This document shows positions 35,678-64,000 of a stretch of 64,000 nucleotides of DNA, piece after piece. Source of the stretch: Variovorax paradoxus. GTDB taxonomy: Bacteria; Pseudomonadota; Gammaproteobacteria; Burkholderiales; Burkholderiaceae_C. A program made the translations under genes and the position numbers. The notes beneath the pieces are model-generated. The model made no database searches. It saw only the letters and a list, made by a program, of their open reading frames with translations, and had not been told where the DNA came from. How positions within the stretch are numbered: the stretch's first letter is position 1; every line of letters starts with the position of its first letter. The stretch is taken from NCBI RefSeq assembly GCF_029919115.1, contig NZ_CP123990.1:4862501-4926500 (forward strand). The letters run 5' to 3'.

Positions 35678-35923
35678 TCACTGCAGGCGCCCCTCTTCGC
35701 GCTGCGCCTCTTCCATCGACGGCTTGATCAGCGCGGCGCCGGTCAGTGCCCACAGCGTCAGCACGTCGTCCAGCGCGCAGATGTTGCCGGGGTTCACGCC
35801 AAGCCAGCGTATGAGCTCTTCGGCCCGCTCCGGCGAGGGCGAATCATGCAGCGTGCAGAAGAGCGTCCAGGCGACGTCGAAGGCCGGGTCGCCGCCGGTC
35901 GGCCGGGTCGTCTTGTCTTTCAT
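35678..35923 (-). CDS. Second short DUF4880-like protein at the end of the exporter operon
   Basis: 81 residues, 9 bp downstream of the exporter gene on the same strand and facing the other short gene. DVAWTLFCTLHDSPSPERAEELIRWL and CALDDVLTLWALTGAALIKPS fit the FecR N-terminal layout (A-W...L...S...E...WL...P.N..AL..V..LW). It is not an MbtH protein: the conserved MbtH tryptophans and NxExQxSLWP-like motif are missing. Function is inferred only from resemblance and position. Confidence 0.55.
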   Translation of the reverse strand: MKDKTTRPTGGDPAFDVAWTLFCTLHDSPSPERAEELIRWLGVNPGNICALDDVLTLWALTGAALIKPSMEEAQREEGRLQ

Positions 35924-35932
35924 TACCCTCCT

Positions 35933-37624
35933 TCACGCTGCGAGGCTTTCCTGCGATTCGCGCACCTTGTCCTCGACGATCTTTCCCGCCTGCATGGTGA
36001 TGACGCGATCGGCCAGGTGAAAGTAGCGGTCGTCGTGCGAGATCACGACCAGCAGGTGTCCCTTGGCGCGCAGTTCGGGCAGCAGTTCGGTATAGAAAAG
36101 ATGGCGGAAGGTCGGGTCCTGGTCGGCGGCCCATTCGTCGAACACCAGCACCGGGCGCCCTTCAAGGTAGGCGTGCACCAGCGCCAGCCGCTTGCGCTGC
36201 CCGGTCGAAAGGTCGGTGGTGCTGAATGCGCCGTTCTTCAGGCTCACCTTGTGGGCAATTTCCAGCCGCTCCAGATAGGGCAGCGCCGTTTCGGGCAACA
36301 CCTCCATGCCGGCGCCGCCTTCGCTTTCTTCACCGGCCACGAGGTCTTCGAACAGATAGAAGTCGGAGAACACCGTGGTGAACAGCTGCCGGTAGTCGTC
36401 GCGGCCTTCGGGCTTGACCACCGAGCCGTCGATCAGCACGTCGCCTGCCTGCGGCGCATACAGCCCGAGCAGCAGCTTGATCAGCGTGGTCTTGCCGGAG
36501 CCGTTGTCGCCCACCACAAACACCATTTCGCCGCGGCGCAGCTTCAGGTCGATGGGCCCGAGCGCAAAGGCCTCGCCGCCTTCGGGCGCATCGAACGCAT
36601 AGCGCACGCCGCGCATGCCGATTTCATTCTTCAGGATGACGCCGTTGGACGCGCGCTCCAGGTGCAGGTGCGGCTCCGGCGTGGCAAAGCGTGCCGACAG
36701 GTCGCCAATGCGCTGGAAGGCCACCTTGGCACGGCCCACCCCGGGCAACAGGAGCGCGATCTGGTCCAGCGGGCCCTTCAGGAACAGCAGCACCAGCACG
36801 AAGCCGCTGAGCACCGCGGGCTCGGTCGGCTGGAACGCAGCCCAGCCCAGGATCAGCGCAATCAGCAAAAAGAACAGTGCCGAGCCGAAGGCGGTGGCAA
36901 TCACATAGGTGTTGATGGCACGCCCGTTGACGACGCGGATGGTGTCGACAATGCGCTCGATCTGGCCGGAGAACATGCGCGTGCGGCGCGTGCGGTGCAT
37001 GCGCAGCTCCTTCGCGCCTTCGCTGATGGCCCGGTAGGCCTTGTGCAGCTGGTCTTCCTGCTCGCGCGCTTTCCAGAAGCCGGCTTCGCCGCGGATCTGC
37101 GCCATGAGCTGCACCGTGATGCCGATCACCAGCGCCATCAGCATCAATCCGAACAGCGGCAGCGAAAGGAACGCGAGGTAGCTCAGGCAGCCCAGCGCCA
37201 CGGCAATTGCGATCAGCATTCCCGACAGCGCGAACGCCACGTCGCTGATCATGTCCACGTCCTGCGACAACACCGGCATCAGGCGGTGCGTGCGGTAGCG
37301 CTCCAGCGCATCAATGGGCGCCGCGAGAATTTTCTGCGCAAGGCTCTTTCGCACCTGGGCCACCAGGCGCTGGCCGACGAAGTTGGTCGACACGTCCGAC
37401 GCCATGCGCCCGAAGAGCGCCACGCCGCACAGGCCGATGAAAGTCAGCAGCAGGCCACCCGCCAGCCCGCCCGGCTGGTTGAGCACACGGTTGATGGTGC
37501 CGAGCAGCGCGACCGTGGCGGCACCGGCGCTGATGCCCGTGACCGCGGACAGCACTATCCACGGAAGAAAGGGTTTCAGCAGGCGCCCGATCTCGGCGCC
37601 GTTGCCTGCGGTGGTAGTTGTCAT
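35933..37624 (-). CDS. Cyclic-peptide/siderophore export ABC transporter (PvdE/SyrD-like)
   Basis: 563-residue fused permease-ATPase. Six transmembrane helices occupy about residues 1-300, and the nucleotide-binding domain holds Walker A GDNGSGKTTL, a divergent signature LSTGQRKRLAL, Walker B PVLVFDEWAADQDP and switch His ISHDDRYF. The signature LSTGQ and DEWAADQDP are typical of the PvdE/SyrD family, which moves siderophore precursors or lipopeptides across the inner membrane. It is divergent from the fhuF-like gene with a 183-bp gap that must hold promoters for both. Confidence 0.93.
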   Translation of the reverse strand: MTTTTAGNGAEIGRLLKPFLPWIVLSAVTGISAGAATVALLGTINRVLNQPGGLAGGLLLTFIGLCGVALFGRMASDVSTNFVGQRLVAQVRKSLAQKILAAPIDALERYRTHRLMPVLSQDVDMISDVAFALSGMLIAIAVALGCLSYLAFLSLPLFGLMLMALVIGITVQLMAQIRGEAGFWKAREQEDQLHKAYRAISEGAKELRMHRTRRTRMFSGQIERIVDTIRVVNGRAINTYVIATAFGSALFFLLIALILGWAAFQPTEPAVLSGFVLVLLFLKGPLDQIALLLPGVGRAKVAFQRIGDLSARFATPEPHLHLERASNGVILKNEIGMRGVRYAFDAPEGGEAFALGPIDLKLRRGEMVFVVGDNGSGKTTLIKLLLGLYAPQAGDVLIDGSVVKPEGRDDYRQLFTTVFSDFYLFEDLVAGEESEGGAGMEVLPETALPYLERLEIAHKVSLKNGAFSTTDLSTGQRKRLALVHAYLEGRPVLVFDEWAADQDPTFRHLFYTELLPELRAKGHLLVVISHDDRYFHLADRVITMQAGKIVEDKVRESQESLAA

Positions 37625-37807
37625 GCAAAGGCTCTTTCCGCCCCGGGGGCGACAGCGTGGAAACGACCATGCCGCCCGGCACAGCCCCGGTGGCTTCGTG
37701 CCACCTACTGCCTAGACGGTTGAGCCGCGGCAATGTTCAGCGCGGTGCGCGTGAACAGTTGCCCTGCAAATCCGTCTTGATGGCATGACCTCGCCGACGG
37801 CCGATCC

Positions 37808-38536
37808 GTGATCCCGCTGCTGGAGCCCCTGTTCCCCGGCGAGCTGGCCGTGCATGGCGAAAAGCTGCAATGCGCCGACGCCGTGCCGCCCGGCGCGCTG
37901 CGCGTGGCCGACCTTGCGCAATCGCCCGCGCTGCTTGCCGACGTGCTGCAGAGAAATGCGCGCTACCGGGGCGTTGCCGGCACAGACCTGCGCGCCGTTG
38001 CGTCCGCATGGAGCCTCGAATACATCGCGATGCTGCTGCCGCCCGTGATGGCCGCGGCCAGCATGCTGCAGCACGTGTTTCCGGTTGCGGCGGAACACAC
38101 CTGGGTGCGGCTCGACGCGCATGGCGGCCCCGCGAGCTTTCACATCCGGCACATGGGCCGGCCGCACCACGGGGCCGGCACCGCAGAGCGCTACGCGCCG
38201 CTGCTATGGCAGCACCTTGCGCCGCTTTTCGAAGCGCTCGCGGGGACGACGCGGCTTGCGCCCAAGATTCTCTGGAGCAACACCGTGCGGCTCATGGAGC
38301 CCGTATTCGACGTGGCGTTGGCCGCCACCGGCGGCGCACCGTCGATCTCGCGCGACCGGCAGCTGCTGCTGCACAGCGCCACATGGCCGAACGAGCTTCG
38401 CCCCAACCCGCTTCACGGCCGCGAACGCAGCCACCGCGTCAAGCTGCACCGGGAGTGCTGCCTCAACTACCTGTTGCCGCACGAGCACCACTGCAACGCC
38501 TGCCCGCTTGCACCGGAGCATCGCGGTTTCGGGTGA
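37808..38536 (+). CDS. FhuF-like siderophore-iron reductase
   Basis: 242 residues, GTG start. The C-terminal cysteine motif C-C-x10-C-x2-C (Cys217, Cys218, Cys229, Cys232) is the [2Fe-2S] site of FhuF ferric reductases, which release iron from hydroxamate siderophores in the cytoplasm. The body has the FhuF-type LEYIAMLLPPVMAAASML and LWSNTVRLMEPVFD segments. It leads the plus-strand run of tailoring genes, 49 bp before the formyltransferase. Confidence 0.9.
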   Translation: MIPLLEPLFPGELAVHGEKLQCADAVPPGALRVADLAQSPALLADVLQRNARYRGVAGTDLRAVASAWSLEYIAMLLPPVMAAASMLQHVFPVAAEHTWVRLDAHGGPASFHIRHMGRPHHGAGTAERYAPLLWQHLAPLFEALAGTTRLAPKILWSNTVRLMEPVFDVALAATGGAPSISRDRQLLLHSATWPNELRPNPLHGRERSHRVKLHRECCLNYLLPHEHHCNACPLAPEHRGFG

Positions 38537-38585: not shown

Positions 38586-39504
38586 ATGCCCAAGGCCAAG
38601 CTCGTCTACATCCTGTCTTTGAGAAATGCCGCCGCCGACAAGGCCGGCCAGCATATTGCATACAAGGGCGAGCAGCGCTACATGGCCTCCCCGCTCGAGT
38701 ACCTGGCCAAGGCGCTCGATGAGACGCCGCTGGGCGACGCCTACTCGCTCGAAGGCATCGTCATCGACGACGATCCGCGCTCGCCGAAAGACCAGGCCGC
38801 GCTGCAGGACTACGGCTTTTCATGCCAGCCCGACAAGAAATGGATCTTTCCGGCGGGTTTGAAGACGCAAGGCAAACAGCTCACGGACATCTTCCATTCG
38901 GTGCCTTCCGAATACAGGCGGCTGCCGCTCGATTCAGCCGAACGCCCCGCAGGCAAGAGCCGCTTCGAGCGCACCCTGCTCGACAAGCTGCTGACGCTGC
39001 AGGCCGACATCGTCGTGCTCGACGGCCTGCTCGTGATCCTCGACGAGCTGGTGCGGCCCGGCGCACCGTGCCGACATCGTCGTGCTCGACGGCCTGCTCG
39101 TGATCCTCGACGAGCTGGTGCGGCCCGGCGCACCGTTCCACCGCAAGATCGTCAACATCCATCCGGGCATCACCCGTATCGAATCGCCCTACGAGCGCCG
39201 CGGCGCCTATGCCACGCTCGATGCGCTGCACGGTGCGCAGGGCCGCAAGATCGTGAACTGGCAAACGATGGAAAGCGTGCCCGTGCCTCCGCTCTACAAG
39301 ACAGGGGCCTCGCTGCACTACGTGGACAACGGCATCGACTCCGGCGAGGTGATCCATGACGCGTTGCGCACCACCATCGACCCGAACGACACCATCCTCG
39401 AGCTGCGCTGGAACAACTTCAACCACAGCCTCTTTGCCGCGCTGCACGAGGGCCTGGCCCTGCTCGCAGGGCAACGGCAACCGCTCACCGAAAGAACCGC
39501 ATGA
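38586..39504 (+). pseudogene. N5-hydroxyornithine formyltransferase, frameshifted by a 67-bp tandem duplication
   Basis: PvdF-like enzyme that would transfer a formyl group to N5-hydroxyornithine. The N-terminal frame (MPKAKLVYILSLRN) reads correctly to residue 161; the extra 67 bases then shift it, giving 96 unrelated residues and a stop at 39357-39359. The correct frame resumes after the second copy and encodes the catalytic half: NIHPGITRIESPYERRG and VDNGIDSGEVI, holding the His and Asp expected of formyltransferases. Deleting one copy restores 283 residues, close to PvdF. The 3' end overlaps the acyltransferase start (ATGA). As written the product should be inactive. Confidence 0.88.
39003..39136 (+). 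repeat. Perfect 67-bp head-to-tail duplication
   Basis: Unit 1 is 39003-39069 and unit 2 is 39070-39136; both begin GCCGACATCG and end GGCGCACCGT, with no mismatch. 67 is not a multiple of three, so the duplication shifts the reading frame of the formyltransferase gene by one base. The sequence either side matches an intact gene when one unit is removed. It could be recent slippage, a reversible switch, or an assembly error. Confidence 0.97.
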
Positions 39505-40544
39505 CGCCAACTCCCCATGTCTCCTATGCGGGCGGCATGCCGCACGCCATCACGCGCGACGGCGACGCGCTCAGCGTGCGCAACACGCAGGACGAAACAC
39601 GCTCGCTCTGGAAAACCAGCCAGGCTGCTTCAGGCGCCGTGCTCCAGTGGGTGGACGGCAGCAATGCGTCCACGGCCCACCTGCTGGCCGCCCTGGAAGG
39701 CGCGTTCGAACACCACCCGGCCCTCAAGACGCTGCGCGTTGCGCCGAGCCAGCCGGCGACGTCGCTCGTGCAGGCCGGCGTGCTGCTGCAAGCCGAAGGC
39801 GGCCAGGCCCTCGCCTGCCGCGACATGCTTTGGCAGCAGCCTTCGCTGTGGCTACCCGCAGTGCACGCCCCCATGGCCCTGCAATACGCACTGACCAAGG
39901 GCAAGCGCCACCCCGTGCGCCCGCCCAAGCCGCGCGGCGTGCTCTACCAGCGCTTCATTCCCTGGCTCGGCAAGACCTTTTCGTTTCGCAGCTTCGACTT
40001 CGAGGCCGACCTGCCGATGTTCAACCGCTGGATGAACGACCCCGACGTGGCCGTGATCTGGGAGGAAGAAGGCGACCTGGACAAACACCGCCAGTACCTC
40101 TCGGCCATCGACCGCGATCCGCACATGTATTCGATGATCGCCTGCCTCGACGGCGAGCCCTTCGGCTACTTCGAGATGTACTGGGCCAAGGAAAGCCGCA
40201 TTGCGCCGTTCTACGACGTGGACGACTACGACCGCGGCTGGCACGTTCTGATCGGCGAGCCGGCGTTTCGCGGCAAGGCCTTCGCCACCGCCTGGCTCAC
40301 CTCCATCTCTCACTACATCTTCTTGTGCGACCCACGCACCCGGCGCGCCGTGGGCGAGCCGCGCATCGACCATCTGCAGCAGATCCGCAACCTCGACAAG
40401 TCCGGCTACGCGAAGGTGAAGGAATTCGACCTGCCGCACAAGCGCGCCCTGCTGGTCGTGATGCTGCGCGAACGCTACTTCACCGACGCCCTCTGGCTGC
40501 CCCGCAGCGACGCCGCCGCCACGCCTGCCCAACATTCTGCGTAA
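39501..40544 (+). CDS. IucB-like GNAT siderophore acyltransferase
   Basis: 347 residues. About 150 N-terminal residues are a poorly conserved domain, then a GNAT domain with the siderophore-type pattern FRSFDFEADLPMFNRWMNDP, GYFEMYWAKESRIAPFYDVDDYDRG and HVLIGEPAFRGKAFATAWL (acetyl-CoA loop), ending LPHKRALLVVMLRERYF. Relatives acetylate N6-hydroxylysine (IucB) or acylate N5-hydroxyornithine. Its start overlaps the formyltransferase stop (ATGA), so the two modifying genes were designed to be coexpressed. Which acyl group it transfers is not determined. Confidence 0.9.
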   Translation: MTPTPHVSYAGGMPHAITRDGDALSVRNTQDETRSLWKTSQAASGAVLQWVDGSNASTAHLLAALEGAFEHHPALKTLRVAPSQPATSLVQAGVLLQAEGGQALACRDMLWQQPSLWLPAVHAPMALQYALTKGKRHPVRPPKPRGVLYQRFIPWLGKTFSFRSFDFEADLPMFNRWMNDPDVAVIWEEEGDLDKHRQYLSAIDRDPHMYSMIACLDGEPFGYFEMYWAKESRIAPFYDVDDYDRGWHVLIGEPAFRGKAFATAWLTSISHYIFLCDPRTRRAVGEPRIDHLQQIRNLDKSGYAKVKEFDLPHKRALLVVMLRERYFTDALWLPRSDAAATPAQHSA

Positions 40545-40557
40545 AGGAAAAACCGCC

Positions 40558-41892
40558 ATGGTGATTCACGACCTCATCGGTATCGGCTTCGGCCCTTCGA
40601 ACATCGCACTGGCCATTGCGCTGGACGAGAAACGGCGCGACGGCCGCCGCGTCGATGCGATGTTCATCGAGAAGCAGGCCGGCTTCGCCTGGCACAAGGA
40701 CATGATGCTCGACCAGGCGCACATGCAGATCTCGTTCATGAAGGACCTGGCAACGCTGCGCAACCCCACCAGCCGCTTCACCTTCATCAACTACCTGCAT
40801 GAAAAGAAGCGCTTGCAGGACTTCATCAACCTGAAGACCTTCTTTCCCAGCCGGCACGAGTTCAACGACTACCTGGGCTGGGCCGCATCCCAGTTCGAAG
40901 ATGCCTGCGTCTACGGAGAAGAAGTCTTCGAGGTGCTGCCCGAAAGAGAAGGCCATGGCGGCGAGGTCTCGCTGCTGCGCGTGCGCTCGCGCGACGGCAC
41001 CGGCCACGTGACAGAACGCCTTGCACGCAACCTGGTCGTGAGCATTGGCGGCATGCCCAACATTCCGGACGGATTCCGCGCACTCAGGAACGACCCGCGC
41101 GTGTTCCATTCGAGCAGCTACCTGCGGGACATGGCCCGCCTGCCCGATGCCGCAAGGATTGCGATCGTGGGCGCGGGCCAGAGCGCGGCGGAGATCTTCA
41201 TGGACCTGCAGGGCCGCCCGCACGCGCCGCAGGTCGACCTCATCATGCGGGCCCGCTCGATCCGCCCGTCGGACGACAGCCCCTTCGTGAACGAGGTGTT
41301 CAACGTCGAGTTCACCGACTACATCTACAGCCAGCCTGAAGACGAACGCGCCGCCCTGATCGACGAATTCGGCCACACCAACTACGCAGTGGCCGACCTC
41401 GACCTGATCCAGCAGATCTTCAAGATGTTCTACGAGCAGAAGGTTCGCGGCGAAGAGCGCATGCGCTTCCTGCGCCGGCACGAGATCCGCGGCGTGCATG
41501 CGGCGGGCGATGGCATCCACCTGACCCTGCACGACCAGAACACCGGCCACGAAAACACCCTGCTCTACGATGCCGTGGTGCTGGCCACCGGCTACGGCCG
41601 CGAGCAGCACAAGGCGCTGCTGACGCCGCTTGCCCCCTACCTTGGCGATTTTTCGGTCGACCGCCACTACCGCGTGGGCAGCACGCCGGACTTTCACCCC
41701 GCCATCTTCCTGCAGGGCGCCTGCGAGTCGTCTCACGGGCTGAGCGACACCCTGCTGTCGGTGACATCGGTGCGCACGGGTGAGATCGGCAATGCCCTGC
41801 TCAGGGCGATTCCGGCCGGCGCGGCGGTGGCCGCCACTGCCGTGAATGCCGCAAACAGCCCCCGCCATGAGCGGCAGCCAGTGCAGGCCTAG
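40558..41892 (+). CDS. L-ornithine N5-monooxygenase (PvdA/SidA-type)
   Basis: 444-residue FAD/NADPH hydroxylase making N5-hydroxyornithine, the hydroxamate precursor. FAD motif is GIGFGPSN (residues 8-15), substrate/flavin region HKDMMLDQAHMQISFMKDL, NADPH motif VGAGQSAAE near residue 208, and VVLATGYGRE near 343. Full length compared with PvdA (443). It is 13 bp after the acyltransferase gene and is closed by a strong terminator. Confidence 0.96.
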   Translation: MVIHDLIGIGFGPSNIALAIALDEKRRDGRRVDAMFIEKQAGFAWHKDMMLDQAHMQISFMKDLATLRNPTSRFTFINYLHEKKRLQDFINLKTFFPSRHEFNDYLGWAASQFEDACVYGEEVFEVLPEREGHGGEVSLLRVRSRDGTGHVTERLARNLVVSIGGMPNIPDGFRALRNDPRVFHSSSYLRDMARLPDAARIAIVGAGQSAAEIFMDLQGRPHAPQVDLIMRARSIRPSDDSPFVNEVFNVEFTDYIYSQPEDERAALIDEFGHTNYAVADLDLIQQIFKMFYEQKVRGEERMRFLRRHEIRGVHAAGDGIHLTLHDQNTGHENTLLYDAVVLATGYGREQHKALLTPLAPYLGDFSVDRHYRVGSTPDFHPAIFLQGACESSHGLSDTLLSVTSVRTGEIGNALLRAIPAGAAVAATAVNAANSPRHERQPVQA

Positions 41893-41956: not shown

Positions 41957-42019
41957 AAGCCAAACGTCTCATGTATGGAAGCGCCAAGGTGCCGAAATCG
42001 GCCAGCCCTGGGCGTCGCA

Positions 42020-42031
42020 ACGTGAACACGT
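42020..42031. promoter_or_regulatory. Inverted repeat upstream of the TonB receptor gene
   Basis: ACGTGaaCACGT, a 5-2-5 inverted repeat about 30 bp before the receptor start in a gap that must contain its promoter. No known regulator can be named for it. Confidence 0.3.
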
Positions 42032-42060
42032 CGTATTCAAGCACCTGGAGTATCAACTTT

Positions 42061-44262
42061 ATGCGTCCCCTGCCCCGTCAACGTCTATTGAATGCCGCGC
42101 TCGCCGCGGCCTTTGGCACGGCCTTTTCCCTTTGCAGCGTGAGCGCCCTGGCGCAGGCGGCTGGACAGCAGCAGCGGGCCGGCGATTCGACGCTGCCCGC
42201 CATCACGGTGAACGCCGACACGGAAGAAACCGCCACCGGCCGCGTCAACGGCTATCTTGCCAAGCGCAGCACGGCCGGCAGCAAGACGGACACGCCGATC
42301 GTCGAGACGCCGCAGTCGATCTCTGTCATCACGGCCGACCGCATGGACGCCATCGGCGCCACCAACGTGAAGGACGCGCTCGGCTATACCCCGGGCGTGA
42401 GCATTGCACCCTTCGGCGCCGACTCGCGCTACGACTGGATCTCGATCCGCGGCTTCGACGGCTATGCGCCGGGCTTCTACCTGGACGGCCTGCCGCTGCG
42501 CAACAACGGCACCTGGGGCCTCTGGAAAACAGAGAACTACGGCAGCGAACGCATCGAAGTGCTGCGCGGCCCTACCTCGGTGCTCTATGGCATGGCAAGC
42601 CCGGGCGGTGTGGTCAACATTGCGAGCAAGCTGCCCACGGCAGAGCCCGTTCGCGAGATCCAGCTGCAGTACGGCAACGACGCCCGCCGCCAGGTGGCCG
42701 GCGATTTCTCGGGTGCACTCGACTCGGAAGGCAAGGTGCTCTATCGCATCACCGGGGTGCTGCGCGATGCCCAGCTGCCCGGCGGCAGCTCGCGCGACGA
42801 CCGCACCTACATTGCGCCCTCGATCACCTGGAAGCCTTCCAGCGACACCACCTTCACGCTGCTGGCCCAGTACCAGAAGAACCGCGCAGGCAGCTACACC
42901 CGCATTCGCCCCGCGGCCGGCTCGCTCACGCCAACGCGCATCGGCACCTACATTCCCGACGACCTGAACGCCGGTGATCCCAACTTCGATCACTTCAACC
43001 AGGACCAGAAGATGATCGGCTACCAGCTCGAGCATCGCTTCAACGACACCTTCACCGTGCGCCAGAAGCTGCGCTACGGCAAGCTCGAGGTCGACTACCG
43101 CGCCCTGCAGGCGCCGAACTTCGTGCCCATGGACCCGGCGAACGCCCTGAGCTTCGAGAACTACCGCTACCTGAACCGCGGTGTCTTCGGCAGCCAGGAA
43201 AGCACGTCGTCCGTCACCATGGACAACCAGCTGCAGGCCGACCTGCGCTCGGGCGACTGGCGCCACAAGGTGCTCGTGGGCCTTGACTACCAGCGCACCC
43301 GCATCGACCAGTACACCTACAGCAGCGGCTTCGGCGCGCCGCTGCTCGACATCTACGCGCCCGTGTACGGCGGCACCATCGACATTCCGCAGCCCTACGT
43401 CAACGGCGTGAGCCGGCTCGCGCAGACCGGCATCTACCTGCAGGACCAGATCAAGTGGGGCGATCGCTGGTCGCTCACCATCGGCGGGCGCTACGACACC
43501 GCGCAAAGCACCAACTACAGCCGCCTGGACGGCTCCACGCAGCGCATTTCGGAGCACAAGTTCACCAAGCGCGCGGGCCTGGTCTACCTGGCCCCGAACG
43601 GCCTGGCGCCGTACCTGAGCTACTCGGAGTCGTTCGCGCCCATCGGCGCGCTCGACCCGGCGACCCGGACCCCCTTCAAGCCTGAAAGCGGCCGCCAGTA
43701 CGAGGCCGGCATCCGCTACCAGCCGCCGGGCGGCAAGTCGCTGTACAGCGCGGCCATCTTCGACCTGCGCCGCAAGAACTACATCACGTATGACGCGACC
43801 TTCATGCCGAAGCAGACCGGCGAGATCTCGGTGCGGGGCCTCGAGCTCGAAGCCACCACCGAACTCATGCCGCGCCTGAACCTCACGGCCTCCTACGCCT
43901 ATACGCCGCGCGCCATCGTCACGGCCAGCAGCCGCGCCGAAGAAATCGGCAAGCAGGCGATGTCCGTTCCGCGCAACCGCCTCTCGGTGTGGGCGGACTA
44001 CCGCTTCAGCAACGGCCTGAAGGTGGGCGCGGGCGTGCGCTTCAACGGCTCGACCCGCGGCGACGCGGAAGTCGTCGCGCCGGCCAAGGTGCCTTCGTAC
44101 ACGCTGCTGGACGCCATGATCGGCTACGACATCGACCGCTGGACGCTGGCGCTGAACCTGCGCAACCTGACCAACAAGACCTACGTTGCGAACTGCGCCT
44201 ACGGCTACTGCTACCTGGGCACGCAGCGCACGGCGGTGGCAACGGCCACCTATCGCTGGTAA
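42061..44262 (+). CDS. TonB-dependent siderophore receptor (FpvA/FhuE-like)
   Basis: 733-residue outer-membrane receptor. A signal peptide ends at SALAQA (about residue 30). The plug begins with a TonB-box-like LPAITVNA, then PIVETPQSISVITADRM, GYTPGVSIAPFGAD, RYDWISIRGFDGYAPGFYLDG and RGPTSVLYGMASPGGVVN, a combination typical of ferric-hydroxamate/pyoverdine receptors; the barrel ends in Trp. No N-terminal signalling domain of the FecA kind is evident before the TonB box. The ATG at 42061 with GGAG 10 bases upstream is preferred to ATG 41971, which would bury the signal peptide. It presumably takes up the product of the adjacent assembly line. Confidence 0.94.
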   Translation: MRPLPRQRLLNAALAAAFGTAFSLCSVSALAQAAGQQQRAGDSTLPAITVNADTEETATGRVNGYLAKRSTAGSKTDTPIVETPQSISVITADRMDAIGATNVKDALGYTPGVSIAPFGADSRYDWISIRGFDGYAPGFYLDGLPLRNNGTWGLWKTENYGSERIEVLRGPTSVLYGMASPGGVVNIASKLPTAEPVREIQLQYGNDARRQVAGDFSGALDSEGKVLYRITGVLRDAQLPGGSSRDDRTYIAPSITWKPSSDTTFTLLAQYQKNRAGSYTRIRPAAGSLTPTRIGTYIPDDLNAGDPNFDHFNQDQKMIGYQLEHRFNDTFTVRQKLRYGKLEVDYRALQAPNFVPMDPANALSFENYRYLNRGVFGSQESTSSVTMDNQLQADLRSGDWRHKVLVGLDYQRTRIDQYTYSSGFGAPLLDIYAPVYGGTIDIPQPYVNGVSRLAQTGIYLQDQIKWGDRWSLTIGGRYDTAQSTNYSRLDGSTQRISEHKFTKRAGLVYLAPNGLAPYLSYSESFAPIGALDPATRTPFKPESGRQYEAGIRYQPPGGKSLYSAAIFDLRRKNYITYDATFMPKQTGEISVRGLELEATTELMPRLNLTASYAYTPRAIVTASSRAEEIGKQAMSVPRNRLSVWADYRFSNGLKVGAGVRFNGSTRGDAEVVAPAKVPSYTLLDAMIGYDIDRWTLALNLRNLTNKTYVANCAYGYCYLGTQRTAVATATYRW

Positions 44263-44345: not shown

Positions 44346-56313
<11,968 letters not shown>

Positions 56314-56314
<1 letters not shown>

Positions 56315-59300
56315 CAAGCGATCTCCAGGCTGTCCATGAAGGCGTCGATGTCCGAAAGAGACTGGGCCACGGGTTTCCTTTCGCCGGCATCGGCAATGAG
56401 CGCAGCCATGTCCATGAGAACCGGCTGCCTGAAAATATCGGAGACCGTGAGGTCCGCATGCATGGCGCCCTGCACCCGGGCGACCACCTGCACGGACATG
56501 AGCGAATGCCCGCCGAGTTCGAAGAAGTTGTCGTGGCGGCCCACGCGCTGCACGCCGAGCACCTCGGCCCATATGGCTGCGAGTTCTTCTTCCCTGGCAC
56601 CCTGCGGCGGCTCGTAGGCCCGTGCGCTCGCGCGTTCGGGTTCGGGCAGCGCCTTGCGGTCGACCTTGCCGTTGGCGTTCAGCGGCAGGGTCTCCAGCAC
56701 CATGAAGAGCGCCGGCACCATGTAGTCGGGCAATGCGCGGCCGAGTTGCTCGCGCAGGCGCGCCGCATCGATGGCGTGCTCCGCCTGCGCCGATACATAG
56801 GCCACGAGCCGAGCGCCGCCCGCGCCCTGGCTTGCCACGACGACGGCCTCGCGCACCTCGGGTTGCGCAAGCAGTTGCGCCTCGATCTCGCCCAGCTCGA
56901 TGCGGAATCCGCGGATCTTCACCTGGTGATCGATGCGGCCCAGGTAGTCGAGCTGGCCCTCGCTGTTCCAGCGGACCAGGTCGCCGGTGCGGTAGAGCCT
57001 TGCACCGCCTTCGCGGTCGAAAGGGTCGGCCACGAAGCGCTCGGAAGTGAGCGCGGCACGGCGCACGTAGCCGCGCCCAAGCCCGGCGCCGCCCAGGTGG
57101 AGCTCGCCCGCGGCGCCCGGTGGCACCAGGTTCATTTCGGCATCGAGCACATAGGTCTGCGTGTCGTCGATCGGCCGGCCGATCGGCACCTGGGTGCGCC
57201 CGTCGTCGCGGCAGCGCCAGTGCGTCACGTCGATGGCGGCCTCGGTGGGGCCGTACAGGTTGTAGAGCGCGGCTTGCGGCAATCGCCTGAAGACTTCGTT
57301 CTGCGCTTCTGCGGCCAATGCCTCGCCGCTGCAGACGATGCGCCGCAGGCTGGTGCAAGCGTCTGCGCCCTGGTGCGCAAGAAAGGCCTGCAGCATCGAT
57401 GGCACGAAGTGCAGCGTGGTCACCTCATACGCGCGAATCAGCTGCACGAGCCGCGCCGGTTCGCGGTGGTCGCCGGGGTTGGCGACGGCCAGCCTGGCGC
57501 CGAACATCAGCGGCCAGAAGAATTCCCACACCGACACGTCGAAGCTGAATGGCGTTTTCTGCAGCACGGTGTCCGCTTCGCCGAGCGCATAGGCCTGCTG
57601 CATCCACACCAGCCGGTTGTAGAGCGAGCCATGGCGGTTGGCCGCGCCCTTGGGTTTGCCGGTCGAACCCGAGGTGTAGATCACATACGCCAGGTTCTCG
57701 CTGTCGAGCGCCACCGCCGGATCGGCTTGCGGGTAGCCGCCAAGGTCCAGCGTGTCGAGCGCGAGCACCGGCATGCCGGTCGGCAATTGCAGCCGCTCTT
57801 TCAGACGCTCTTGCGTCAGTACCAGCGCGAGGCCGCTGTCCTCGGCCATGTAGGCAATGCGATCCGCGGGGTACTCCGGGTCGAGCGGCACATAGGCGCC
57901 GCCCGCCTTCAGGATGGCGAGCAGACCGACCACCAGCTCGATGCTGCGCTCCAGCGCCACTCCGACCTTCACCTCAGGGCGCACGCCCTCTTGCACCAGC
58001 CGGTGTGCCAGTTGGTTGGCCCGGCGGTTCAGTTCGCCGTAGCTCAGCACTTCATCGTTGAAAACGAGGGCAACGGCATCGGGAATTTCAGCCGCCTGCT
58101 GTTCGATGGTGCGGTGCACCGTTTGCGCTTCGCCGCGGCGGTGGGTGTTGACGCCCCACTGCGCGAGTTGGGTGCGATCTGCGTCGGAGAGCAGCTCCAG
58201 CTCGCCGAGCTTCGCTGCCGGCAGCTTTACCAGCGCTTCGAGCACGCGCTGGTAATGGCCCGCCATGCGCTCCATGGTGCTCGGCTCGAAAAGTTCGGCC
58301 GCATAGCGAAAGTTGGCCCGGATGCCGCCGTCTTCGCGCTCGATGGTTTCCAGCGTCAACTCGAAGGGGGCGGCGCGCTGCTCCAGGTCGATGCGCCGCA
58401 CGCTCAGGTCGGGCCAGCCCCGCAGCGGCTGGTCCCCTTGGCCGAGGTGGTTGAACATCACCTGAAACAGCGACCCAGAGCCGTGCCCATGCTCCGCGCG
58501 CAGGGCCTGCACCAGGCGTTCGAACGGCAGGTCCTGGTGCGCCTGCGCTTCGATCGAAGTGTCGCGAACCTGCGCCAGGAGGTCCGCCAGGCTGGTGTGC
58601 GCGGCAAGGCGTGCATCGAGCACCAGTGTGTTGATGAAGACGCCGATGACGCCCGCCGTCTCCGGCCGGCCGCGGCCCGAGGCGGGCACGCCGACGCGAA
58701 TTTCTTTCTGGCCCGTGTAGCGGAACAGCAGCGCATGAAAGGCCGTGAGCAGCGCCATGAACAAGGTACCGCCCTGCGCGCGCGAAAGCTGCCTGAGCCC
58801 CTCTGCAAGGCCGGCCGGTATGTCGAGCGAATACTGCGCAGCGCTGTAGCGGCCTTCGGCGGACCGCGGCCGGTCGGTGGTCAGCGCAAGCACCGGCTGG
58901 CTCGCGCCGAGGCGCTTGCGCCAGTAGGCGAGCTGCCGTTCGCCCTCGCCTTCTTCGAGCCATTTGCGCTGCCACAGCGCGAAGTCGACATAGCCGATCT
59001 CGGGCTGGGGCCGCGTGTCCGGCAGGCCCCGCACTCGCAAGGCGTAAGCCTGCGCAAGGTCGTCCAGCATGAGCTGGACGGACCACGCATCGGAAATGAT
59101 GTGATGCATCATGAGGAGCAGCTGGTGCTCGCCCTGCGCCATCTTCAGCAAGGCGCAGCGCAGCAAGGGGCCGGCCGTCAGGTCGAAGGGCGTGCGGCAG
59201 ACCCGAGCCACCGCCTCGTCGTAACGGATCTCTCGCTCGGCCGCGTCGAGCAGGCTGAGATCGGCGAAAGGAATGTCGATTCGACCCTCTTCCAGAATGC

Positions 59301-59646
59301 GCTGCTCCGGCACGCCTTCAGGGCCGGAAGCGAACACGGTTCGCAATGCGTCGTGGCGTTCGGCGAGCGACTGCATTGCAGCCTGCAGCGCCCCGACATC
59401 GAGCGGGCCTGAAAAACCAAGCCCGCCGCCGACGTGGTACGCCGTGTTGCCGGGGTTCAGCTGCCACAGGAACCATTGGCCCTGCTGCGCGAAGGAAACG
59501 GGCGCGGGGCCGGCGTTGTGGCCGCGCACGATGCTCTCGCGCGCGGGTGCCGCATTGCCGCCCTGCTTCAGGCGGCTTTGCAGCAGGCTCAACTGCTCTG
59601 GCGACAGGCGCGCGCGACGTTCGGAAAGGTGAGATGTCTCGCTCAT
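56314..59646 (-). CDS. NRPS A: C-A-T, serine module
   Basis: 1110 residues. Condensation domain about 48-480 with HHIISDAWS (His181, Asp186), adenylation domain with [11 protein letters not shown] and specificity residues D-V-W-H-V-S-L-I-D-K read by eye, a serine code, and thiolation Ser1048 (LGGHSL). It accepts the chain from the PKS ACP and adds serine. The start at 59646 overlaps the PKS stop by four bases (ATGA). The open frame continues upstream inside the PKS, but that part is antisense-free readthrough of another frame and was not included. Confidence 0.95.
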
Positions 59647-62600
59647 GATAAAAAACCTGCGGTGATGCGATCGGTTGCCGGTTGTGGGTCTGCGCTGGCC
59701 TCGGCCTCGCGCTCGATCTCTTCGATCAGCCGCAGCTCGATCAATGTGGCCAGCTCGGCCACGGTGGGCGCCTTGAAGAAATCGGCAGGCTGCAGCTCGA
59801 CGCCATAGGCCTTGCGCACGCGGGACAGCAGTCGAATGGCCAGCAGCGAATCGCCGCCGAGTTCGAACAGGTTGTCGTGCGCGCCCACTGGCGAGATGCC
59901 AAGTGCCTCGGTCCACAGCGCAGCCAGGCCTTCTTCCAGTTCGCCTTCGGGCGCGGCGTACGCCGTGGGCAGCGCGGGGCGCGAATGGCTCGCGCGCGAA
60001 TCGCCCGCTGGCGCCGCACCCGCTGCGCCCTGCGCTTCCACCGCGTCCAGCAGATTGCCCAGCGGACGAAGGCGCGGCGCGAGCGGCGAGACCGACACCA
60101 CCGTCTGCGGCAGGTCGGGGCCGTTGACGATGCGCTCGAAGGCGAGCACGCCGGTGCGCTCGTCCAGGCCGACGCCCTCCGGCAGGTCCATGTCGGCCGC
60201 TGAGCCCACATCGCGCCACGCATCCCAGTTGACCGAAAACACCGGCAGCGCCGATGTGCGGCGATGCGCTGCCGCCAGTGCGTCGAGATAGGCATTGGCA
60301 GCCGCGTAGTCGCTGCGGCCCAGCCCGCCGGCGAGCGTGGCAATGGAAGAACAGAAGAGCACGAAGTCCAGCGGCTCTTCGCGCAGGGCGGCAAGCAGCT
60401 CGCGCGTGCCCGCCACCTTGGGGGCGAACGCCGCTTCCACCTGGGCGCGGGTGCGCTGGGCGATCATGCCGAGCCCCGGGTCCATCACCGCGTGAACCAC
60501 TCCGTTTAGGGTGCCGAAGCGCGCATGCGCCGCCGCGAGTGCATCGCTCAGCTGCGCGGCGTCGGTCACGTCCGCCGTGACCGTCAGCACTTGCGCGCCG
60601 GTCGTTTCGAGTTCGATCAGCTGCCGCAGCTTGCGCCGCAGTGCAGCGGGCTCGTCGGACGATGCGGCAATACGCTCCCACTCGCCGCGCGCGGGCAGCG
60701 GCGTGCGGCCGAGCAGCACCAGGCGTGCCTTCCATGCGCGGCTCAGGTGCCGCGCGAGCGCAAGGCCTACACCGCCCATGCCGCCGGTGATGAGGTACAC
60801 ACCGCCTTCGCGCAGGCGCGGCGTGGCGGCCTGCTTGGGCAACGGCTCGTAGCTCTTGAGCCAGCGGTGTGGCCCGCGATAGGCCACCACGAAATCGTCT
60901 TGCGCAGACACCGCCTCGTCGGCGACGCGGCGCGCCAAATCGGTTTCAGCCGCGCTTTCCGGTGCGGGCAACACCACGTCGATCACGCGACATGAGACCG
61001 ACGGATATTCCTGGCCCACGACCTTGGCGATGCCCAGCAGGGTTGCCTTCGAGGGCACCAGCGCCTCGGTGCCGGAAACGTCCTCGACGCCATCGGTGAC
61101 GATGGTCAGCGCCGTCGGAGCGCGGCCGGACAAGCCCAGTGCGTCGAGCGCATGCACGAGTGCCAGCAGGCTGAAGTAGCCGTTCTCCAAAGCGTCCGCA
61201 TGCGGCGGCGCGGGCCGGCCGCCGCCAAGGCTCCACAGATGATGGATGTGCCGCACCGGGCCTGCCTCGGCTTCCACCTCGCGCAGCAGCGCTTCGTGGT
61301 CGGTGCGCTCGGTTTGCCGCAGGGTGTATTGCCGCGGCGCGGTGCGCGCGAAGCGCGGGCCTCGCAGTGCCAGCACCACCTGTTCGCCGCGCTCGCGCAG
61401 CGTGCGTGCGAGCCGGTCGGTGAAGCTGTCGGCATCGCCCAGGATCAGCGTGCTGCCTGTTCGCTCCGCAGGTTTTTCGGAGGGCGCTGGCGGTGTGCTT
61501 CGCTGCCAGCGGGGTGCGTAAAGAATATCGGCATCTGCGCTTGGCGAAGAAGGCGGTACGGCCTTGCCCGGCTCCACCCAGTAGCGCTGGCGCTGGAAGG
61601 CATAGGTCGGCAGCGGCACGCGGCGGCGTTGGCCGCCCTCCTGGTTCGCAGCCCAGTCGATGTCGACTCCGGCCGTCCACAGGCCCGCAACCGCATTTGC
61701 CAATTGCTGGCTGTTGCGCGCGGTCTGCTGCGCATGAGCCTGGCTGGCCCAGATGCCCGCGGCCGAGCTGGCACCCGGATGCTGGCGGGCGAGCCCGGCC
61801 AGCGTTTCGCCGGGGCCGACTTCGAGTACGGCACGTCCGGGCTTGCTGAAGATGTGGCCCAGGCCTTCGGAAAAGCGAACCGTGTTGCGCAGATGCCTGC
61901 CCCAGTATGCGGGGCTGGTGGCCTCTTGCGCGGTGATCGGCAGGCCGGTGAGGTTCGAGATGAATGGAATGCGCGGCACATGGCGCGGCACCGATGCAAT
62001 CAGCTGTTCCAGTGCGGCAACCGCCGGATCGACGAGCCGCGAATGGAACGCCACGGCAACGTGCAAGCGGCGCGCCGAATGCTGGCGCGCGCGCAGTTCT
62101 TCTTCAGCCCGTGCAATGGCTTCGGGCGTGCCGGCCAGCACGCAGAGTTGTTCTCCGTTCACCGCCGCAAGGTCGCACCCCATCTCGAGGAACGGCGCGA
62201 GCGCGGATTCGGCCAGCGGCACCGAGAGCATGGCACCGCCCCGCAGCGCCTGCACAAGGCGCGCACGCTGCGCGACGATGCGCAGCGCGTCTTCCAGCGA
62301 GAACACGCCGGCCACGCAGGCTGCGACGTATTCGCCAAGGCTGTGCCCCATCATCACGGCGGGCTTCACGCCGCTGTGCAGCCACCATTGGGCCAGTGCA
62401 TATTCGACGGCGAAAAGCGCTGGCTGCGCGACCTCGATGTGGAACAGGCGCTCGTTCGCCGATGCTTCTTCATCCGCTGCCGGGAAAAGCAGCGGCTGCA
62501 GGTCGATGCCGCTCTGCGTGCGCAGCAAGTCGATGCAGCGATCGAGTGCCGCGCGGAACACGGCGCTTTCGCTGTGGAGCGCAGCGCCCATGAAGGCATG

Positions 62601-64000
62601 CTGGCTGCCGCTGCCCGGAAAGAGAAACACCACCTCGGGCGCGGTGGCCGGTGCCTTGCGGAACGTGGCGCCTGGCGAAGACAGCATTTGCGAAGCCATC
62701 TGCGTATCGCTTGCGACCACGGCGCTGCGCCATGCGAAGGTGCGGCGCCCGGTTTGCAGGGTGTGCGCCACGTCGTGCAGGGCCAGTGCGGGCTGTGCCT
62801 GCAGGTGCGCCGCGAGTTGCGCTCGGCCTTGCGCCAATGCCGTTTCATTTTTTGCCGACAGGGGCAGAACCTGCCAGGCCGGCGCCCTTGCCGCATTCCC
62901 TGCGACGGCCGGCGCTTCTTCGAGCACGACATGCACGTTGGTGCCGCCGATGCCGAAGGAGCTCACGCCGGCACGGCGCGGCACACGGCCCTCGGCCCAG
63001 GCGCGCGCTTGGGTGTTCACGTAGAACGGGCTCGCCGCGAAATCGATCTGCGGATTCGGCTGCTCGAAATTGAGGCTCGGCGGCAGCACGCGGTGCTTGA
63101 GCGCCATCGTCGCCTTGATGAGCCCTGCCACGCCGGCGGCTGCGTCGAGATGGCCGATGTTGGTCTTTACCGAGCCTATGGCGCAGAAGCCGCGCCGCTC
63201 GGTATCGGCGCGAAACGCCTGGGTCAGTGCGGCCATCTCGATCGGGTCGCCCAGCGTGGTGCCAGTGCCGTGCGCTTCCACATAGCCGATGGTGTCTGCC
63301 GCCACACCGGCGATAAGCTGGGCCGCGCGAATGACTTCGGCCTGCCCGTCCACGCTGGGCGCTGTAAAGCCCACCTTGCCCGCGCCGTCGTTGTTGGCGG
63401 CCGAGCCCTTGATCACCGCATGGATGGTGTCGCGGTCGCGCAGCGCGTCGTCCAGCCGCTTGAGTACCACCACGCCAGCGCCGCTGCCGATGAGCGTGCC
63501 CGCGGCCTTTGCGTCGAAAGCGCGGCAGTGGCCGTCGGGCGAGAGGATGGCACCGGACTGATAGCGGTAGCCGCCTTCCTGCAGCAGGTTGAGCCACACG
63601 CCGCCGGCCAAGGCCATGTCGCAATCGTGGCCCAGCAGGGCCTGGCACGCGGTGTGTACTGCGACAAGCGATGTCGAGCAGGCGGTCTGCACGGTAACCG
63701 CGGGGCCGCGCAGGTCGAGCTTGTAGGCCACGCGCGTGCAGAGCGACCCGCCGGAGTTGCCGTTCATCAGCCCCAGCAGGTCTGCAATGCCGCTCTCCGC
63801 GCCAAGGCCGAACGACGGAAGCAGGTTGCGGATGAGGTACAGGTTGGTGCCCTCGCCCGCATACACGCCGACCTTGCCGGGCCAGCGCGCGGTGTCGCAG
63901 CCTGCGTGCTCGAGCGACGCCCAGGCGCATTCCAGGAAGATGCGCTGCTGCGGATCGAGAGTCTCGGCTTCGCGCGGCGTGTAGCCGAAGAAGCCCGCGT
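59643..64000 (-). CDS. PKS module KS-AT-KR-ACP (5' part outside the window)
   Basis: About 1450 residues visible. KS: active Cys in QTACSTSLVAVHTA, His in EAHGTGTTLGDP and NIGHLDAAAG. AT (about 62640-61760): FPGSGSQ, GHSLGEYVAA and VAFHSRLVDP; the AFHS motif indicates malonyl rather than methylmalonyl use. KR (core about 60810-60240): LITGGMGGVGLALA with catalytic Ser, Tyr (RSDYAAANAY) and Asn. ACP Ser in GGDSLL near 59850. The module adds a C2 unit and reduces the keto group, placing a beta-hydroxy acid before serine. The upstream partner that loads the starter, probably an amino acid, is beyond the edge. Confidence 0.95.
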   Translation of the reverse strand, partial: AGFFGYTPREAETLDPQQRIFLECAWASLEHAGCDTARWPGKVGVYAGEGTNLYLIRNLLPSFGLGAESGIADLLGLMNGNSGGSLCTRVAYKLDLRGPAVTVQTACSTSLVAVHTACQALLGHDCDMALAGGVWLNLLQEGGYRYQSGAILSPDGHCRAFDAKAAGTLIGSGAGVVVLKRLDDALRDRDTIHAVIKGSAANNDGAGKVGFTAPSVDGQAEVIRAAQLIAGVAADTIGYVEAHGTGTTLGDPIEMAALTQAFRADTERRGFCAIGSVKTNIGHLDAAAGVAGLIKATMALKHRVLPPSLNFEQPNPQIDFAASPFYVNTQARAWAEGRVPRRAGVSSFGIGGTNVHVVLEEAPAVAGNAARAPAWQVLPLSAKNETALAQGRAQLAAHLQAQPALALHDVAHTLQTGRRTFAWRSAVVASDTQMASQMLSSPGATFRKAPATAPEVVFLFPGSGSQHAFMGAALHSESAVFRAALDRCIDLLRTQSGIDLQPLLFPAADEEASANERLFHIEVAQPALFAVEYALAQWWLHSGVKPAVMMGHSLGEYVAACVAGVFSLEDALRIVAQRARLVQALRGGAMLSVPLAESALAPFLEMGCDLAAVNGEQLCVLAGTPEAIARAEEELRARQHSARRLHVAVAFHSRLVDPAVAALEQLIASVPRHVPRIPFISNLTGLPITAQEATSPAYWGRHLRNTVRFSEGLGHIFSKPGRAVLEVGPGETLAGLARQHPGASSAAGIWASQAHAQQTARNSQQLANAVAGLWTAGVDIDWAANQEGGQRRRVPLPTYAFQRQRYWVEPGKAVPPSSPSADADILYAPRWQRSTPPAPSEKPAERTGSTLILGDADSFTDRLARTLRERGEQVVLALRGPRFARTAPRQYTLRQTERTDHEALLREVEAEAGPVRHIHHLWSLGGGRPAPPHADALENGYFSLLALVHALDALGLSGRAPTALTIVTDGVEDVSGTEALVPSKATLLGIAKVVGQEYPSVSCRVIDVVLPAPESAAETDLARRVADEAVSAQDDFVVAYRGPHRWLKSYEPLPKQAATPRLREGGVYLITGGMGGVGLALARHLSRAWKARLVLLGRTPLPARGEWERIAASSDEPAALRRKLRQLIELETTGAQVLTVTADVTDAAQLSDALAAAHARFGTLNGVVHAVMDPGLGMIAQRTRAQVEAAFAPKVAGTRELLAALREEPLDFVLFCSSIATLAGGLGRSDYAAANAYLDALAAAHRRTSALPVFSVNWDAWRDVGSAADMDLPEGVGLDERTGVLAFERIVNGPDLPQTVVSVSPLAPRLRPLGNLLDAVEAQGAAGAAPAGDSRASHSRPALPTAYAAPEGELEEGLAALWTEALGISPVGAHDNLFELGGDSLLAIRLLSRVRKAYGVELQPADFFKAPTVAELATLIELRLIEEIEREAEASADPQPATDRITAGFLS

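Follow-up and report, generated by a model that had tools for sequence, protein, structure and literature searches.

The gene for a formyltransferase in a siderophore cluster of Variovorax paradoxus is interrupted, as assembled, by two identical stretches of DNA lying head to tail, and the question raised by this locus is whether the interruption belongs to the strain or only to its assembled text. An earlier note on the same DNA offered three explanations, i.e. a reversible on/off switch of siderophore formylation, a recent loss of function changing the siderophore, and an assembly artefact. The evidence considered here, from the window (the whole 64-kb stretch of DNA that was analysed), from the contig in which it lies and from related genomes, strongly favours the last, with a probability of about 0.95 that the duplication at 39003-39136 is an assembly artefact and not a real feature. 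The value of an artefact verdict, reached from sequence comparison, is that no false siderophore switch enters the literature.

The interrupted gene and its siderophore cluster

The repeat itself is as the earlier note had described it, namely two perfect 67-bp units placed head to tail at 39003-39136. Tandem Repeats Finder reports this interval with a period of 67, 2.0 copies, 100% match and a score of 268, and a separate repeat search pairs 39003-39069 with 39070-39136 at 100% identity. The boundaries of the units are unique, in that no base can be slid to the left or right, giving a junction homology of 0 at the formyltransferase site. The duplication is the sole perfect tandem duplication in the window over a unit range of 15-400 bp, and an exact tandem copy of 67 bp cannot arise by chance.

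Translation of the assembled gene from its ATG at 38586, with both units present, likewise bears out the claimed frame shift; the frame departs from the family sequence at residue 162 and reaches a stop at 39357-39359, giving a product of 257 residues that comprises 161 family residues followed by a foreign tail. In the adjacent frame the C-terminal half is intact, running to a stop at 39502-39504; a match to Formyl_trans_N in this frame (E 1e-4) falls short of the cut-off of that family. The motifs N-I-H-P-G and N-G-I-D-S, which we take to contain the catalytic Asn, His and Asp of formyltransferases, lie in this half, and the loss, in the gene as written, of the half with the catalytic motif, also claimed before, stands.

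The nearest relative, the sister genome G004, encodes a protein of 283 residues that aligns with Pyoverdine synthetase F (PDB 6cul) over residues 1-273 with an E value of 3.7e-124, in agreement with the earlier assignment of the gene as PvdF-like, and through this sister protein both motifs align to the same letters in 6cul. The window copy is the same protein as that of the sister, split in two pieces. By homology the gene is one for a PvdF-type hydroxyornithine formyltransferase, with a predicted role in formyl transfer to N5-hydroxyornithine. The likeness of the sister protein to PvdF is full-length (residues 1-273 of 283); the copy in the window differs from PvdF, however, in that its text is broken and in that its surroundings are a Variovorax NRPS-PKS cluster, with a GNAT acyltransferase next to it. 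When the genome was searched with the sister protein, the two pieces of the window gene were the only matches and no second formyltransferase was found. A two-piece enzyme, with the C-terminal half (140 residues) started from a GTG at 39082, was considered and set aside, the duplication itself being doubtful.

The features of the region are collected in Table 1. The stop of the formyltransferase overlaps the start of the Acetyltransf_8 acyltransferase by 4 bp (39501-39504), an arrangement that would put two possible hydroxyornithine acylases in one operon; the acyltransferase is perhaps the second of these, a substrate suggested by its neighbours. In excerpts of the literature, acidobactin, vacidobactin and variobactin from Variovorax/Acidovorax (PMC4598715) and variochelin from Variovorax (PMC10999976) are associated with NRPS plus PKS modules, as in the window cluster. 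A point of difference is that the variochelins have two N-acetyl-N-hydroxyornithines each (PMC10999976).

Upstream of the cluster genes, a long plus-strand frame (35846-37723) has no Pfam match and is overlapped by a minus-strand frame (35933-37624) that matches an ABC transporter (ABC_tran, E 1.1e-24). Because the match falls on the minus strand and none on the plus frame, the minus-strand frame is probably the actual gene.

Table 1. Positions of the formyltransferase gene, its repeat units, the neighbouring siderophore genes and the further duplications of equal length
Feature	Position	Strand	Remarks
FhuF-type siderophore-iron reductase	37808..38536	+	context
PvdF-type N5-hydroxyornithine formyltransferase, as assembled	38586..39359	+	98% to residues 1-164 of the sister protein
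First 67-bp unit	39003..39069	+	formyltransferase codons 140-161 and one further base; 0 differences from the lone copy of the sister, G004
Second 67-bp unit, most likely an unmerged assembly copy of the first	39070..39136	+	absent in 15/15 relatives matched on both flanks
Remaining formyltransferase, next frame	39070..39504	+	99% to residues 139-283 of the sister protein; N-I-H-P-G motif; stop overlaps start of next gene
GNAT acyltransferase, Acetyltransf_8 type	39501..40544	+	context
L-lysine/L-ornithine N-monooxygenase	40558..41892	+	context
TonB-dependent siderophore receptor	41971..44262	+	context
NRPS + PKS modules of the siderophore cluster	44346..63866	-	outer limits of four overlapping open frames
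Nine further 67-bp duplications	G000:C1, first bases 1242958, 2604818, 4339493, 5022133, 5024021, 5140243, 5201878, 5454488, 5475009		outside the window

Copy number in relatives and across the contig

The comparison with sister strains that had been proposed for this locus was made with related genomes. Sixty relatives were searched, 36 of them in Variovorax, and 33 of 61 genomes (that of the window included) gave a match, many of these matches being short. All 13 loci with a copy of the neighbouring gene at least 69% identical bear the name Variovorax. Fifteen relatives were matched on both flanks. In every one of them the target segments that match either side of the joint share 59-70 bp, and thus each has one copy and none has the repeat. 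The formyltransferase gene is present in 42 of 71 loci (L002-L072), four genomes being counted twice among the 42, and in 41 of these it aligns to the sister protein uninterrupted; the exception, L013, has two pieces meeting at residues 110-120, away from the site of the duplication.

In the nearest relative, identity is 97% on one side of the joint and 95% on the other. When the window gene is read in the family frame against it, there are 7 synonymous and 3 non-synonymous changes in the N-terminal half, 12 synonymous and 1 non-synonymous in the C-terminal half, and no differences in the 67-bp unit. A real duplication would have put the C-terminal half out of frame from the moment it arose, yet this half looks like an ordinary working gene, without sign of relaxed selection. 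This pattern of substitution weighs only against an old duplication; a very recent true one would look alike.

A mutation of the formyltransferase gene would be expected to have a length peculiar to it, and with this in view the tandem duplications of the same contig (G000:C1) were counted. Within a first 2.4 Mb there are 24 perfect ones over the unit range of 15-600 bp, and ten of these, including that in the formyltransferase gene, have a unit of exactly 67 bp; besides these ten there is no unit longer than 58 bp. A further 390,675 bases added neither a 67-bp duplication nor any other unit longer than 58 bp; at the mean rate about 1.6 would be expected there, with a probability of finding none of about 0.2 by our own estimate, so that this zero neither refutes nor adds to the pattern. 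Over the total census of 2,790,675 bases, i.e. 48% of the 5,810,675-base contig, all ten of the perfect tandem duplications with units of 59-600 bp are thus of 67 bp. The stretches of contig that were read contain no N.

The ten duplications are spread between 1.24 and 5.48 Mb and, compared by their words, are mutually unrelated in sequence, the longest word common to any two units being 10 bp and none of their 20-mers recurring in the rest of the 2.4 Mb. Six sites lack junction homology and four have 1 bp of it, which is near the chance level (by our own estimate, at least 1 bp in about four cases of ten). The ends of the units have no motif, their information content being 10.4 and 8.0 bits compared with 9.65 +/- 1.37 at random places. 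Perfect tandem duplications with units between 25 and 600 bp are absent from control loci of other genomes, which total 732,671 bases with some overlap; the rate of G000 would predict about 2.6 there (probability of none about 0.07), a result that is supportive, though taken alone modest evidence.

The nine other sites were compared with relatives in the same manner. Genome searches show a clear single copy in the sister at six of them, and inspection of 5024021 also gives one copy, there being one 98.5% match in each of two paralogous stretches; with the formyltransferase site, the single copy in the sister is clear at eight of the ten. The remaining two (5022133 and 5201878) are less certain, the sister sequence there being divergent or repetitive, though it gave no second full copy. 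Two other genomes, G034 at 1242958 and G025 at 2604818, align straight through the site, as two copies would, yet hold only one unit (partial in G025), the rest of the alignments being unrelated spacer. At eight of the ten sites, the formyltransferase included, the open frame of the sister is shifted by one base at the duplication; these are open frames, i.e. predicted genes, and 2604818 may be intergenic.

Origin of the duplication

The same length recurs at ten unrelated sites, with ends at chance level and with the repeat absent from relatives, and this combination points to 67-base overlaps that were placed end to end unmerged. In a node-centric de Bruijn graph, neighbouring nodes overlap by k-1 bases, a fixed length, as given in an excerpt of PMC10462168. 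Pieces of the genome would, like unitigs of such a graph, have shared a constant 67 bases with their neighbours at the ends; at some joins this overlap would have been written twice, and one such unmerged join would fall inside the formyltransferase gene. Since a constant overlap is set by k, the assembler probably worked with a k of 67, or of 68 where the overlap is k-1. It may be that short-read coverage dropped at the unit in the formyltransferase gene, which is 72% G+C, so producing a contig end there. Related errors are on record: false duplications, in which sequence next to a gap or contig end is entered a second time, so that genes are read wrongly, are described in an excerpt of PMC9516828, which, however, concerns vertebrate assemblies, whereas the case here is a short, fixed overlap of 67 bp in a bacterial contig. 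A literature search returned other related descriptions, and in the excerpts that it returned no account of the fixed-67-bp form was found. Several points weigh against an assembly error: the genome is scored as 100% complete in one contig, no N stands in the stretches read, a single copy in the sister is clear at eight and not at all ten sites, the second part of the census gave no new case, the zero of the control loci is modest evidence, and imperfect tandem repeats, one of them of period 67, also occur in G000.

Of the explanations proposed at the outset, the artefact is thus the one supported; the switch and the loss find no support, in view of the recurrence of the 67-bp length at nine unrelated sites, of the repeat being in none of the 15 relatives, and of a C-terminal half free of relaxed selection, and both also need a separate reason for the nine other duplications. 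A real and recent tandem duplication that inactivated the formyltransferase, leaving a strain without the formyl-hydroxyornithine group or without the whole siderophore, is consistent with copies that are exact, with a frame shift that is real in the text and with a genome search that found no second formyltransferase. It is nevertheless improbable; nine other sites with a duplication of this length, unrelated to one another, call for a shared cause, mutations that arose separately would not agree in length, and the out-of-frame half bears no scar of selection, although a very recent event would leave none. A phase switch, in which slippage expands and contracts the repeat to turn formylation on and off, has in its favour that contraction of an exact direct repeat would restore the frame. 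Such a switch would be expected to show a repeat that is kept, or that varies in copy number, among relatives, but all 15 matched on both flanks have one copy; moreover, there are two copies only, with no junction homology to start the cycle, and a length that recurs at unrelated places implies nothing specific to the formyltransferase locus. The probability of a switch is accordingly negligible.

A process in the cell that duplicates a fixed stretch of 67 bp at many places, e.g. a staggered double nick that is filled in and joined, must also be weighed, as the fixed length, the unrelated sequences and the homology-free junctions would follow from it too. We know of no enzyme that makes fixed 67-bp duplications, the unit ends carry no motif, nothing of the kind occurs in the control bases (again modest evidence), and an overlap left by the assembler accounts for all the observations with no need of a new process; an origin of this type is very improbable. 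There is equally little chance that the strain truly carries many 67-bp duplications, several of them in coding genes, made by a process indifferent to sequence, with formylation among the traits switched off.

The living strain most likely has a single-copy gene and an intact PvdF-type enzyme, formylating N5-hydroxyornithine in an ordinary Variovorax siderophore pathway. This single-contig genome, scored as 100% complete, probably holds about 20 such false duplications, as extrapolated from ten in 48% of the contig, and tallying exact tandem duplications according to the length of their unit is a quick, read-free test for assembly errors of this type.

Other irregularities in the contig

No exact overlap of 15-999 bp is present between the start and end of the contig. 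At two of the ten sites (5024021 and 5140243) there is a second frame change upstream, away from the duplication (in L092 near 5023810 and in L118 near 5140027, respectively), these perhaps being small indels or further sequence errors. Imperfect tandem repeats (at least 85%) with other periods, between 40 and 119 bp, are present in G000. An imperfect repeat of period 67 at 2884888 (61 of 67) lies in a dispersed repeat, with mismatches mostly at one end, and was left out of the ten. Five of the 24 perfect duplications have units of 26-58 bp and look, by eye, like variants of one dispersed repeat. Tandem copies of 26-58 bp that by eye resemble one dispersed, G+C-rich repeat (CCCCCGGCCTGCGGCCTCCTCCTTTATTTCGC and variants) lie at about 335190, 1420143, 4027201-4027369, 4677968 and 5542261 in G000:C1; with a similar repetitive region as the query, the sister genome showed 151 matches.
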